64,000 nt of DNA from positions 434,001 to 498,000 of the forward strand of contig NZ_SJPX01000002.1 in assembly GCF_007860175.1 (NCBI RefSeq), written 5' to 3'. Shown here piece by piece: positions 33,291-39,268 of the stretch. Under the pieces are notes generated by a model. It ran no database searches and was not told where the DNA came from. It worked only from the letters and a program-made list of their open reading frames with translations. Position numbers and translations under genes: made by a program. Source of the stretch: Rubripirellula reticaptiva. Its GTDB lineage: Bacteria > Planctomycetota > Planctomycetia > Pirellulales > Pirellulaceae. The stretch's first letter is position 1; every line of letters starts with the position of its first letter.

Positions 33291-34931
33291 TTACCGAACC
33301 AGGCTCATGTAGAAACTAAACATGCGTTCGTCGTCAGTATCAGCCTTGGCCACGGGGAAGGCAAAGTCGAATGCCAGAGGAGCTGGCCCCAACATTGGAA
33401 TTGCCACTCGCAAACCAAATCCCGGTGCGACCCGGAAACTTTCCGAGTTGATTTTCAGTTCTTCTTCGACCGTTCCGAAGTCGACGAACGTCACGCCGCG
33501 AAACGCATCGTCAGCGGTAATCGGAAACATGTACTCGACGGTGTTGAGCCACTGGAAGCGACCGCCAAGCTCAACACCATTAACCGGATCGACCGGTCCA
33601 GCACCACGGAAGTCGAAACCACGCATGGTCGCATAGCCACCGGCAAAGAAGTTTTCAAAGATCGGTGTGTTGTCGCCGCTATACCCGAACCGTGTCGAGA
33701 ACGAAACGGTTTGTTTCCCGGAACCGTCGGCCCGTTCGCGAACCAACCAGTATTGGCGGAACTCGGTTTCAAAGCGAGCGTAATCGAAATCGCCGAAGGA
33801 CTCTTCAAATTTGAATTGAAAGTAGTGTCCGCGACTGGCTTGGATAGGACTATTTCGCGTGTCGTGAGTCAACGAAAATTCACCCGAATACAACGCGTTG
33901 TCGCCGATCACATCGGTCAACTGCGTTGGCCCTGTGCGATTGGTCTGCAAGTCAACATTTTGTCCGGTGACACCAACGGTCAACGACAAGTCGGGCGTGA
34001 CTCGGTAACCGAGTGCCAAGCGTCCACCCAACCGTTCTTCGTCCCAGTCATTGAATCGTCGGTCATACCAAAAACCGCTGACGGACAAACTAATCGGAAG
34101 GTATCCGAACAGGTTCGGATCAACAAACTGTGCGGTATATCGTTTGAATTGTGATCCGGGTGCGGCTTCAATTCGGAAGGTTTGACCGGCACCACGAAAC
34201 GCGGTTCCGCTGAACAAGTCTTGAAATGACCGTGGGAAGCGAGTGATGTCAAAGTTGCGTTCGTCGATTGTGATCTGTCCGGTCACGCCGGCGTCACTGT
34301 TGACGGCACCACCCAACATGATCCGACCTGTCCGAGCAGGAAAACCGTTGATGACCAAGTCAGCTTCGCGAACGCGTGGTCCTTGCACGGCTTGACCGAT
34401 CGAACCGTACGGCAATACAGGCGCGTAAGGATCGACCATCCCGGTTCCGCCGAGCGAATTGGCTTGCGGCGAGGTGTAGTCGCTGTTGGGTGCGAGGTTT
34501 GGCCCAGGGACGCCGTATTGTGGCGCGCCATACTGGGGCGATGCGTTGTACTGGGGTGCCGCGTTGTACTGAGGTGCACCGTTGTTGATAGGTGCGCCAT
34601 ACTGCACCGGAGCGACCGTTTGTTCTTGCGGAAACTGACGGGCCGAATAGACACCGCTGACGCCGGGCGATGCCACTTGAGTGAACCCAGCTTGTTCCAT
34701 CGTGCCAGCAACCGCCGACGACGGCGTGCCGGGCTGTGCAAAATTGTTGTTGGGTGCGTAATTCGTCGCAACACCGGGCGTTGCCTGCGTTTGCCAATTC
34801 GACGGTGGTGCCGAAACCGACTGAAGCTGGGCACAGCCAGTCATTCCCACCAGCGAGCTGCCGAGCGCGAGCCAGGCGAGCGCAAGCCAGCCCAGACGGC
34901 AGGCAGCGTCGCAATGGTTGTGTTCCTTCAT
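33291..34931 (-). CDS. BamA/Omp85-like beta-barrel encoded separately from its POTRA domains
   Basis: 546 residues from the ATG at 34931, which gives a short lipoprotein signal ending LVGMTGC (lipobox, Cys33). An upstream ATG at 35024 shares its A with the stop of the POTRA gene (TGATG) but would put the Cys at residue 64, too far for a signal peptide. After a Pro/Gln/Asn linker with APQYNA-type repeats, the 16-stranded barrel family (Bac_surface_Ag) begins near VREADLVINGFPARTG, with FDPNLF-type strands, the loop-6-like motif GGYATMRGFDF and FGLRVAIPM near the end. No POTRA domain is present. It presumably inserts outer-membrane proteins together with the POTRA protein. Confidence 0.93.
   Translation of the reverse strand: MKEHNHCDAACRLGWLALAWLALGSSLVGMTGCAQLQSVSAPPSNWQTQATPGVATNYAPNNNFAQPGTPSSAVAGTMEQAGFTQVASPGVSGVYSARQFPQEQTVAPVQYGAPINNGAPQYNAAPQYNASPQYGAPQYGVPGPNLAPNSDYTSPQANSLGGTGMVDPYAPVLPYGSIGQAVQGPRVREADLVINGFPARTGRIMLGGAVNSDAGVTGQITIDERNFDITRFPRSFQDLFSGTAFRGAGQTFRIEAAPGSQFKRYTAQFVDPNLFGYLPISLSVSGFWYDRRFNDWDEERLGGRLALGYRVTPDLSLTVGVTGQNVDLQTNRTGPTQLTDVIGDNALYSGEFSLTHDTRNSPIQASRGHYFQFKFEESFGDFDYARFETEFRQYWLVRERADGSGKQTVSFSTRFGYSGDNTPIFENFFAGGYATMRGFDFRGAGPVDPVNGVELGGRFQWLNTVEYMFPITADDAFRGVTFVDFGTVEEELKINSESFRVAPGFGLRVAIPMLGPAPLAFDFAFPVAKADTDDERMFSFYMSLVR
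34509..34580. repeat. Imperfect tandem repeat encoding APQYNA/APQYG units
   Basis: About four units of 15-18 bp coding PQYNA-, PQYNA-, PQYGA- and PQYG-like segments in the linker between the lipobox and the beta-barrel of the BamA-like protein. Units differ by a few bases. Confidence 0.8.
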
Positions 34932-35023
34932 ACGGTCAGCTTCGACGGAGGAGATATAGTTAAGCGGACGAGTCTTGAGCGCAGTGGACGCGAGCTCGAA
35001 CAGATTTTTTGCGGCAGTTTTCA

Positions 35024-36487
35024 TCAGTAACGCTTGCCGCCTTCATCAGTGGGCACGACTTTGATATCCGGTGGCTCGGCAATTTGCGGATTCGTTTCAA
35101 GCAACTGGCTGCGTTCTAACCGCGAGCGGTTGGTTTCTAACGCGCGTCGATCGATCCAGTCGCCTTCGCGCAGGTCGATCAGATTCAACATCGTCGTTTC
35201 TTTCATCAAGTGCGGTTCGCCGTCAATGTTGACGCGAATTTTGCCGACCTTCCAGCGATCGCCTTCGGTGATTTTGTAAACCAAGTCAACGATATTGGCT
35301 TCGTCTCGCATCACCGTTTGCGGTTCGATCTCGGCATAGATAAAACCAAGTTCACCGTACGCGTAAACCATCTCGCCAACATCTTGCCGCAACTTGGTTC
35401 CGTCGAAGGTATCACCAGCGTTTAGCTTTAGGCGTTCTCGCAGCGATGACTCGATCGCGTATTGATTGCCAACGATCTGAACTTCGTTGACTTTGAATTG
35501 CGGACCTTCGTTGACGACGAACACGACGTCGACCCACTTGCCGTCTTTACGGTACTTCCAAGTGCGCCCGACCGTCGCAGTCAAAAAACCAAGGTTGTGA
35601 TAATAGGCCGCCAAAATGTCGACATCTTGATCGAGCTTTGCGATATCAAACGTGTTGCCGATGTAGGGGACCCAACCACCAGCAAAGCCATCACTGCTCT
35701 TGATGACCGTTTTGAGTCGTGCTTCGGAAACGATCGTGCTGCCGTTGATCGCGATACTTGCAATCCGTTCTTTGGGGCCTTCGTTGATTCGAAAAACAAC
35801 CGCCGATGCATCATTCGGAAGGCCGACCGAGCTAAGAACAGAAACTTGGTTGAAGCCTTCTTCGCGGTAGTAGTCGCTGAGTCGTCTGCGCGCCGATTCG
35901 ATCGAAAACTCGCTCAACGGGTCATTGGGATTCACGCCCGCGCGCCCTTTCAGCTCGCGTTCATTCATCGCTCGGTTACCGTGAAAAACAACTTGTGAAA
36001 TCGTTGGACGTTCGTGAACGATGAACGTGACGCCAACGCCACTGGGTTGCTCATTCAGTTTGAAAGTGACGTGATCGAACGAGCCAAGATCGTTTAGCCG
36101 GCGGACGTCGCCCAGCACGGTTTCGTAGTCATAGAAGCGATCTTTGCGGGTCTGGACCTGCTGTAAGATTCGGTGCATGGTGACGCGTTTGTTTCCGACG
36201 ACGCGAACATCAAGCACGATCGCGTCACCTTTTTCACGTCGGACTGCGATACCATCGCCATCGTGGACAAATTCGCGAAACTTGGGTTTGCTGTCGGGGC
36301 CGGGCGCACTCGCGCCGCCTCCACCTCCACCGCCCATGCCACCACCACCACCACCACCGAACTGCCCCAGCGCGGGCAACGACAACGGTGCAGAAAGCAA
36401 AATGGCCAACATGCAGCGGCGATACCCAACCGAATGGGAACCGTATACGCGGCAATGTGACAACGAATGGGGCATACGTGGTGGCAT
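35024..36487 (-). CDS. Five-POTRA periplasmic protein, N-terminal half of a split BamA
   Basis: 487 residues from the ATG at 36487 (ATG at 36475 and a TTG at 36505 are alternatives). A signal peptide with core MLAILLSAPLSLPALG is followed by two poly-Gly runs. Five POTRA repeats follow at roughly 91-160, 161-238, 240-328, 331-408 and 411-487, each with the strand-helix pattern (VVGNKRVTMHRIL, VFHGNRAMNERELKG, AINGSTIVSEARLK, QIVGNQYAIESSLRE, RVNIDGEPHLMKET). In normal BamA the barrel follows POTRA5 directly; here the chain ends at POTRA5, and its TGA overlaps an ATG of the barrel gene. It probably binds nascent outer-membrane proteins in the periplasm. Confidence 0.93.
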   Translation of the reverse strand: MPPRMPHSLSHCRVYGSHSVGYRRCMLAILLSAPLSLPALGQFGGGGGGGMGGGGGGGASAPGPDSKPKFREFVHDGDGIAVRREKGDAIVLDVRVVGNKRVTMHRILQQVQTRKDRFYDYETVLGDVRRLNDLGSFDHVTFKLNEQPSGVGVTFIVHERPTISQVVFHGNRAMNERELKGRAGVNPNDPLSEFSIESARRRLSDYYREEGFNQVSVLSSVGLPNDASAVVFRINEGPKERIASIAINGSTIVSEARLKTVIKSSDGFAGGWVPYIGNTFDIAKLDQDVDILAAYYHNLGFLTATVGRTWKYRKDGKWVDVVFVVNEGPQFKVNEVQIVGNQYAIESSLRERLKLNAGDTFDGTKLRQDVGEMVYAYGELGFIYAEIEPQTVMRDEANIVDLVYKITEGDRWKVGKIRVNIDGEPHLMKETTMLNLIDLREGDWIDRRALETNRSRLERSQLLETNPQIAEPPDIKVVPTDEGGKRY

Positions 36488-36715: not shown

Positions 36716-37186
36716 TCAGTTCTTGACGATCGACTCAGATTGGTCCAGCGTCACGTCAATCGCATCAATAGGAAGCTCTAGCCAATCAGTGATCAATACT
36801 CGTTGCACGAGTGGTTCGTCCAAGTGTTTCAGCACAATCTCCATCAATCGTTCGCGAATCTGTGTTTGCGAGGGATCTTCCAGCCACTTGGGGTCGACTT
36901 GCCGCAGAAGCTGTTCGGAAGCTTCGCGTATCTCCATCTGCATCTGGGCCATCCGTTCTTTGCCACGATGCAGCTTCGATGGGTCCAAGACCGCATGTAG
37001 CCGAAAATGGTAAACCGTCGACAGATCTGCGACGCTTTGAAACCGAAAATTGCCAACTTCCATCGCGGTCGTCTCCATACCGCTTAGCCGAGCGACACGG
37101 CTGCGAACGTATCCGATCACGGCTGCGTGAATCGCAACCATCAATAGGATCAGTCCGGCGCCCCAGTAACGTCGTAACAATTTCAT
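36716..37186 (-). CDS. Single-pass membrane protein, weakly FliL-like
   Basis: 156 residues with one N-terminal TM helix (AGLILLMVAIHAAVIGYV) after MKLLRRYWG, so an inward basic N-terminus and an outer soluble domain. The soluble part ends in an amphipathic helix and a strand, RERLMEIVLKHLDEPLVQRVLITDWLELP, which has the shape of the FliL C-terminus, where a similar helix precedes a V-F/I-T-D-F strand. The match is by eye and weak. It is 228 bp upstream of the POTRA gene on the same strand. Confidence 0.7.
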   Translation of the reverse strand: MKLLRRYWGAGLILLMVAIHAAVIGYVRSRVARLSGMETTAMEVGNFRFQSVADLSTVYHFRLHAVLDPSKLHRGKERMAQMQMEIREASEQLLRQVDPKWLEDPSQTQIRERLMEIVLKHLDEPLVQRVLITDWLELPIDAIDVTLDQSESIVKN

Positions 37187-38407: not shown

Positions 38408-39268
38408 ATGACTGAAACTAATTCACCACCGCCCGTCACTTCCGTTCCCGTTGGTCCTTATCAGTGTGGCCCTGGACAACCGCTATTGCTGATCGCCGGA
38501 CCGTGCGTATTGCAGACGCCGGATCTTGCGATGCAGATTGCCGATGTCCTGTGCCGGATCAACCAACGCGACGACGTTAACGTAGTCTTCAAAGCATCGT
38601 TCGACAAAGCCAACCGGACATCGCTGTCGGCCAAACGCGGCCCAGGGATCGACGAAGGACTCAAAATGCTGGCGGATATCGGCCAGCGGTCGGGCCTACC
38701 GACGACGACCGACCTGCACTTGCCGGAACAAGCTGCGGCCGTTGCCCAGGTCTGCGATTTGCTTCAGATCCCTGCATTTTTGGCTCGACAAACCGATCTT
38801 TTGGTCGCGGCGGCCGAAACGGGACGCCCACTGAACGTCAAAAAGGGCCAGTTCATGTCGCCCGAAGACATGCTGTATGTCGTCCAGAAAGTCCGCGGCA
38901 GTGGCGATGGCGGAGTGATGCTGTGCGAGCGGGGCACCTTTTTTGGTTACGGGCGATTGGTCAACGACATGCAATCCCTGCCAATCATGCAGGGATTGGG
39001 AGTTCCGGTCGTTTTTGATGCCACTCACAGCGTCCAGCGACCCGGCGGATTGGGCGGCGCGACCGGCGGAAACCGTGAAATGGTTGAACCATTGGCTCGC
39101 GCGGCCGTAGCAATCGGTACCGACGCGTTGTTTTTCGAAACGCACCCGACACCCGACACTTCGCCAAGCGACGGCGCCAACATGATTCCACTGGGTCAAT
39201 TCGAGGCGACGATAGACCGGTTATTGGTGATCCGAAAAACGATCTCGCAAATCGACTCTGCGGTCTAA
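38408..39268 (+). CDS. kdsA: 3-deoxy-8-phosphooctulonate synthase (KDO-8-P synthase)
   Basis: 286 residues, the usual length for KdsA. Motifs present: IAGPCVLQ at the PEP-binding N-terminus, [26 protein letters not shown] and [15 protein letters not shown], then [14 protein letters not shown]. The enzyme condenses phosphoenolpyruvate with arabinose-5-phosphate to KDO-8-phosphate, the first step to the KDO of LPS. This implies an LPS-type outer leaflet, in line with the BamA and kinase genes nearby. The first dozen residues are a non-homologous extension. Confidence 0.97.

Follow-up and report, generated by a model that had tools for sequence, protein, structure and literature searches.

BamA of the family to which Rubripirellula reticaptiva belongs is encoded as two proteins, the first carrying the POTRA domains and the second the Omp85 barrel, and the evidence strongly supports this split of bamA as genuine and family-wide (all 79 testable family loci). 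To our knowledge, BamA is close to universal among diderm bacteria as a single chain. On balance, we lean towards a reading in which BamA was broken repeatedly within one order at one place inside POTRA5 and would work as a two-protein machine, with a barrel that is usually a lipoprotein and is docked by strand complementation, and with one POTRA protein of genus g262 perhaps serving two barrels.

The window, i.e., the whole 64,000-nucleotide stretch of R. reticaptiva DNA that was analysed, carries both genes on the minus strand. The POTRA-only gene, which corresponds to the N-terminal half of bamA, lies at 35024..36487, with a likely ATG at 36487 in a frame that opens at TTG 36505, and its product begins with what is by inspection an SPase I type signal (..LPALG-QF), followed by a Gly-rich stretch. 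POTRA1-4 (35267..36220, minus) are all complete beta-alpha-alpha-beta-beta units in the AlphaFold2 model (mean pLDDT 92), and after them comes an incomplete POTRA5 (35051..35266, minus), which consists of a beta1 segment, two helices and a beta2 segment without beta3, and the sheet of which is absent from the model. A 92-nt gap (34932..35023, minus), where substitutions have no codon pattern, separates the POTRA stop codon from the likely start of the barrel gene, the C-terminal half of bamA (33291..34931, minus; 546 aa from a conserved ATG). The barrel protein starts with a predicted lipoprotein signal peptide, MKEHNHCDAACRLGWLALAWLALGSSLVGMTG followed by Cys (34833..34931, minus; Cys codon 34835..34833), assigned from the sequence and from rule-based calls in relatives. 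It continues with a weakly conserved Pro/Gln/Tyr-rich linker of ~158 aa (34362..34835, minus), the counterpart of which in the fused homologue is disordered (pLDDT <50), with the POTRA5 strand beta3 (DLVINGFPA; 34335..34361, minus), the homologue of strand 541-549 in the model of the fused protein (pLDDT ~92), and with the Omp85 barrel including the MRGF motif of loop L6 (33294..34334, minus).

The preliminary description had proposed a POTRA-only protein with five POTRA repeats beside a barrel protein without POTRA, and Pfam mapping confirmed this layout: the first ORF has five PF07244 stretches and no barrel match, and the second matches the Omp85 barrel PF01103 (E 5e-49) with no POTRA match. 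The lipobox and the Pro/Gln/Tyr-rich linker that it had assigned to the barrel protein are likewise present in the sequence. In a Foldseek search, the model of the window POTRA protein matched E. coli BamA (E 4e-29), and the barrel searched on its own against the PDB gave TamA/BamA matches, all of them weak. Immediately 5' of the POTRA gene, a minus-strand gene (36716-37186) encodes a 156-aa protein with an N-terminal hydrophobic segment and no Pfam match. Near the bamA halves, there is also a plus-strand gene of the DAHP synthetase I family (38408-39268), by inspection similar to KdsA of the KDO pathway of lipopolysaccharide.

The stop codon of the POTRA gene forms part of a TGATG at the junction, which had earlier been taken as a sign of coupled expression. 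The letters are there, and a barrel gene begun at this ATG (35024..33291, minus) would encode 577 aa, but this ATG lacks conservation, and the ~90 nt behind it evolve like non-coding DNA among near relatives. In the same relatives, the stretch between the POTRA stop and the internal ATG is variable in length and lacks a codon pattern, most of them share a GACCGNATGAA context at the internal ATG, and a recurring context of the GCNGACCGNATGAA type surrounds ATG 34931 of the window. We regard the TGATG start as probably unused; ATG 34931 fits better, hence translational coupling of the two genes is doubtful.

By its profile matches, the pair is the genome's BamA, with a predicted function as insertion factor for outer-membrane proteins, because it holds the sole POTRA and Omp85 matches and because the BamA profile TIGR03303 (741 positions) is covered by both halves together. 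The first protein matches positions 2-372 of this profile and the second 396-738, i.e., jointly nearly end to end, with separate scores of 219.9 and 151.7 bits; neither half reaches the curated cut-off of 297.15 bits, which a single BamA protein is expected to exceed. In agreement with BamA, the pair comprises a barrel with the L6 motif, which is present as RGF/RGY in 142 of 143 barrels, and five POTRA stretches (POTRA5 incomplete), and it is the sole Omp85-type factor of the genome, but the POTRAs and the barrel, which BamA holds in one chain, are distributed over two ORFs with two signal peptides. That the pair is a minor paralogue of an intact BamA encoded elsewhere, a case against which the preliminary description had cautioned, is hardly conceivable, since no further PF07244 or PF01103 match lies outside the pair in the whole 7.85-Mb genome, which is 99.9% complete. 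The search of the window genome for BamD returned TPR-type matches only, mostly within one 1117-aa protein, and thus gave no clear BamD.

The barrel was found in 147 of the 149 genomes of the window's family (63 genera), and the family barrel frames listed are all at most 720 aa long, compared with at least 937 aa in those fused homologues of the order that are complete. Among 81 family loci read, the POTRA ORF lies directly upstream on the same strand in 79, and in the other 2 the contig ends first. Named relatives, a set including Rubripirellula obstinata, Rhodopirellula baltica, Stieleria, Neorhodopirellula and two closed chromosomes, have 48 of 50 loci split, 2 at a contig edge and none fused. 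Differences by codon position amount to ~0.25/0.17/0.57 for POTRA1-5 and 0.19/0.10/0.57 for the barrel, and both halves are under purifying selection. A sequencing frameshift, the other objection foreseen in the preliminary description, or recoding by frameshifting or reinitiation that would give one chain, could find some support in the window's TGATG, where the stop overlaps a possible start. Such an origin is extremely improbable given that the split is kept across 63 genera and in closed genomes, that family members differ in the offset from the POTRA stop to the barrel frame (about -370 to +106 nt), and that separate signal peptides follow the break, against 0 of 40 fused linkers containing one.

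It had been stated earlier that the first protein stops right after POTRA5; models and alignment correct this, placing its end inside POTRA5, before the third strand. In the AlphaFold2 model of the fused homologue L198, which matches BamA structures (Foldseek E 2e-49), POTRA5 has beta1 at 324-333, then helices, and beta2 at 385-388, followed by a disordered linker at 395-536 (mostly pLDDT <50), beta3 at 541-549 (~92) and the first barrel strand at 553. As this model puts beta3 of POTRA5 after the linker, and DLVINGFPA of the window barrel protein aligns with it, the folded part of the split barrel protein begins with beta3. The window model of POTRA5 contains helices 348-357 and 368-380 with no strand after them, a beta1 of one residue and no sheet; in such a model the missing sheet is expected without beta3 and does not prove that beta3 fills the gap. 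The alternate-position hydrophobicity of beta3 is 84/92/91/66% after the split, in a sample of 91 barrel frames without attached POTRA that includes a few cut by contig ends, versus 92/97/86/89% in fused proteins. The distance from beta3 to the barrel is fixed in those 91 frames, and the residues just upstream are Pro-rich and unconserved. The position of the cut matters because a strand remains that could rejoin the halves.

The window barrel protein has the bacterial lipoprotein signature LVGMTG-C behind a hydrophobic stretch, and both lspA and lgt are found in the genome. Rule-based calls assign a lipobox to 54 of 89 split-barrel N-termini by a strict rule and to 75 of 89 by a looser one, and the strict rule finds it in 14 of 85 split POTRA N-termini, 3 of 44 fused-protein N-termini and 0 of 40 fused linkers. 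The predicted lipid anchor of split barrels is therefore common (~60-85% by rule strictness), not universal. In Rubripirellula obstinata, the Rhodopirellula and Stieleria species shown, and others, the barrel carries an SPase I type signal instead, which rules out the lipoprotein barrel as a universal trait and makes a membrane tether usual rather than obligatory. The proposed lipid anchoring of the barrel thus holds as a prediction for the window and is not universal among its relatives. The POTRA protein also seems to bear a lipobox in some split family loci (L118, L128, L130, L138, L153, L159 and L178). Two split POTRA-barrel loci (L090 and L091), both with SPase I type signals, were seen in genome G452 of family f81, where the second locus is uncertain owing to ~6% contamination of the assembly.

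We consider it likely that the two proteins are rejoined in trans into a working BamA by beta3 completing the partner's POTRA5, the reassembly being what we infer from the conserved parts. The POTRA protein would reach the periplasm by its SPase I type signal, and the barrel protein would be exported by its own signal, the usual lipoprotein type of which is predicted to tether the N-terminus to a membrane. Beta3, as the first folded strand of the barrel protein, would then insert into the partner's incomplete POTRA5 and complete the sheet, while the linker and the lipid would keep the free end near the outer membrane. In chaperone-usher pili, a strand of one chain completes the sheet of another chain by donor-strand complementation; the proposed docking of beta3 resembles it by analogy only, as the sequences are unrelated. 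In a clade with an altered beta3 (GxPARTG type), POTRA5 of the partner is altered too (16 genomes by the strict count, 7 more by the loose one), a co-change that is not independent evidence because it concerns a single clade. In genus g262, two barrel genes stand behind one POTRA gene, and such tandem barrels were seen at L118 (3127-6406, in G397), at L119 (G379) and also in G427. The two barrels, of which the first has a lipobox and the second an SPase I type signal, are ~57% identical and both under purifying selection, which would fit exchangeable barrels.

The linker, which is disordered and otherwise unalignable, contains a strongly conserved RGQSPD motif (also VRGQ/VRAQ; residues 407-409 of L198). 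RGQ occurs in 37 of 40 fused linkers, compared with 3.5 expected after shuffling, and after the split one RGQ-type copy is often found in the POTRA tail and another in the barrel N-terminus. With this conservation the linker may bind something, and the motif is a possible docking motif.

Rejoining through beta3 has to be weighed against an experiment on E. coli BamA cut after POTRA5, the separate parts of which did not catalyse folding in vitro, so that contiguous POTRAs were required (PMC5692476). This result counts against rejoining, though a cut after POTRA5 leaves no strand to share. The halves might function without meeting, the POTRA protein as a chaperone free in the periplasm and the barrel inserting alone like Sam50 minus POTRA; Omp85 proteins that lack an N-terminal extension are reported by Heinz and Lithgow, who also refer to a Sam50 that functions without POTRA (PMC4104836), and the barrel does have its own signal peptide. 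We find this unlikely, as beta3 and the remainder of POTRA5 stay conserved, although proteins acting separately in this way should have no use for them, and the genes are adjacent in all testable loci of the family. The halves could also rejoin mainly via the barrel rim, the linker motifs or other BAM subunits, with beta3 contributing little. Conservation of the RGQSPD/VRGQ motif within a variable linker speaks for such contacts, which are nevertheless quite unlikely to dominate, given the strongly conserved beta3 pattern and the loss of the canonical linker motif from the window's two proteins.

As suggested in the preliminary description, planctomycete genomes were searched for the fused and the split form: the window's family is split, related families are fused or split, and other classes are fused. 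In these other classes of the phylum, BamA is one standard chain with 6-20 aa joining the POTRA and barrel parts, while fused members of the window's class have a Pro-rich linker of 106-497 aa at the same point. Within the order, the split also occurs in families f79, f80, f81 and f85 and in one f2 genome (G489), and the other families read are fused; G473 and G482, considered as further cases on account of their short frames, were left out of the split count because these frames are open at the contig end. A maximum-likelihood tree built from concatenated domains, linker excluded, has 5 changes between fused and split forms (5-6 over bootstraps), of which 3 are forced by well-supported branches. 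A single origin of the split is not supported, with 0% of bootstrap trees having one change. The split would thus have arisen several times, at least 3 of them firmly, and repeated splitting is the simplest reading because the outgroup class is fused, although an ancestral split may have been followed by re-fusions instead. Judging by the comparison, a long disordered linker was inserted in POTRA5 between beta2 and beta3 in an ancestor of the class, and a stop codon together with an additional signal peptide later arose within this linker in the window's family and several more times in the order.

The pair shares five POTRAs and an RGF-motif barrel with BamA/Omp85 (TIGR03303; the BAM of E. 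coli and Neisseria), and the fused homologues fold like BamA, but the window differs in its two genes, the cut inside POTRA5, the second signal peptide and the long disordered linker. Where other families in the order and class have a fused BamA, it has the same domains, the same linker position and the RGQSPD motif in the linker, and differs from the split form in being one chain with a linker that lacks a signal peptide (0/40). The TamL/Omp85 lipoproteins of Bacteroidetes/Chlorobi likewise combine an Omp85 barrel with an N-terminal lipid anchor; however, they carry the lipid ahead of POTRA1 and three POTRAs in one chain (PMC4104836), whereas the lipobox of the window is on a barrel-only protein without a complete POTRA, and the TamL model score is far under its cut-off. 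The noNterm Omp85 group also has a barrel without attached POTRAs (PMC4104836), but the window's barrel keeps beta3 of POTRA5, and the neighbouring gene encodes a POTRA protein that matches it. The split is not described in the accessible text of Heinz and Lithgow 2014 (PMC4104836), Speth 2012 (PMC3422733) or a 2026 BAM review (PMC13067283); as far as its accessible part goes, PMC3422733 lists R. baltica strains, Blastopirellula and Pirellula staleyi with a single BamA accession each and leaves the split uncommented. Targeted literature searches did not find the split either, and since subscription journals and preprints were mostly outside their reach, priority is not certain.

The split may account for the weak or partial BamA matches in the annotation of Pirellulaceae. 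Models of BamA gating give a central place to the way in which POTRA5 is coupled to the barrel. The family would offer a natural system for the study of this coupling, of the reconstitution of BAM from parts and of the role of a lipid anchor on the barrel. Since a whole family lives with a BamA that is cut inside POTRA5, a covalently continuous chain may be dispensable if the third strand accompanies the barrel.
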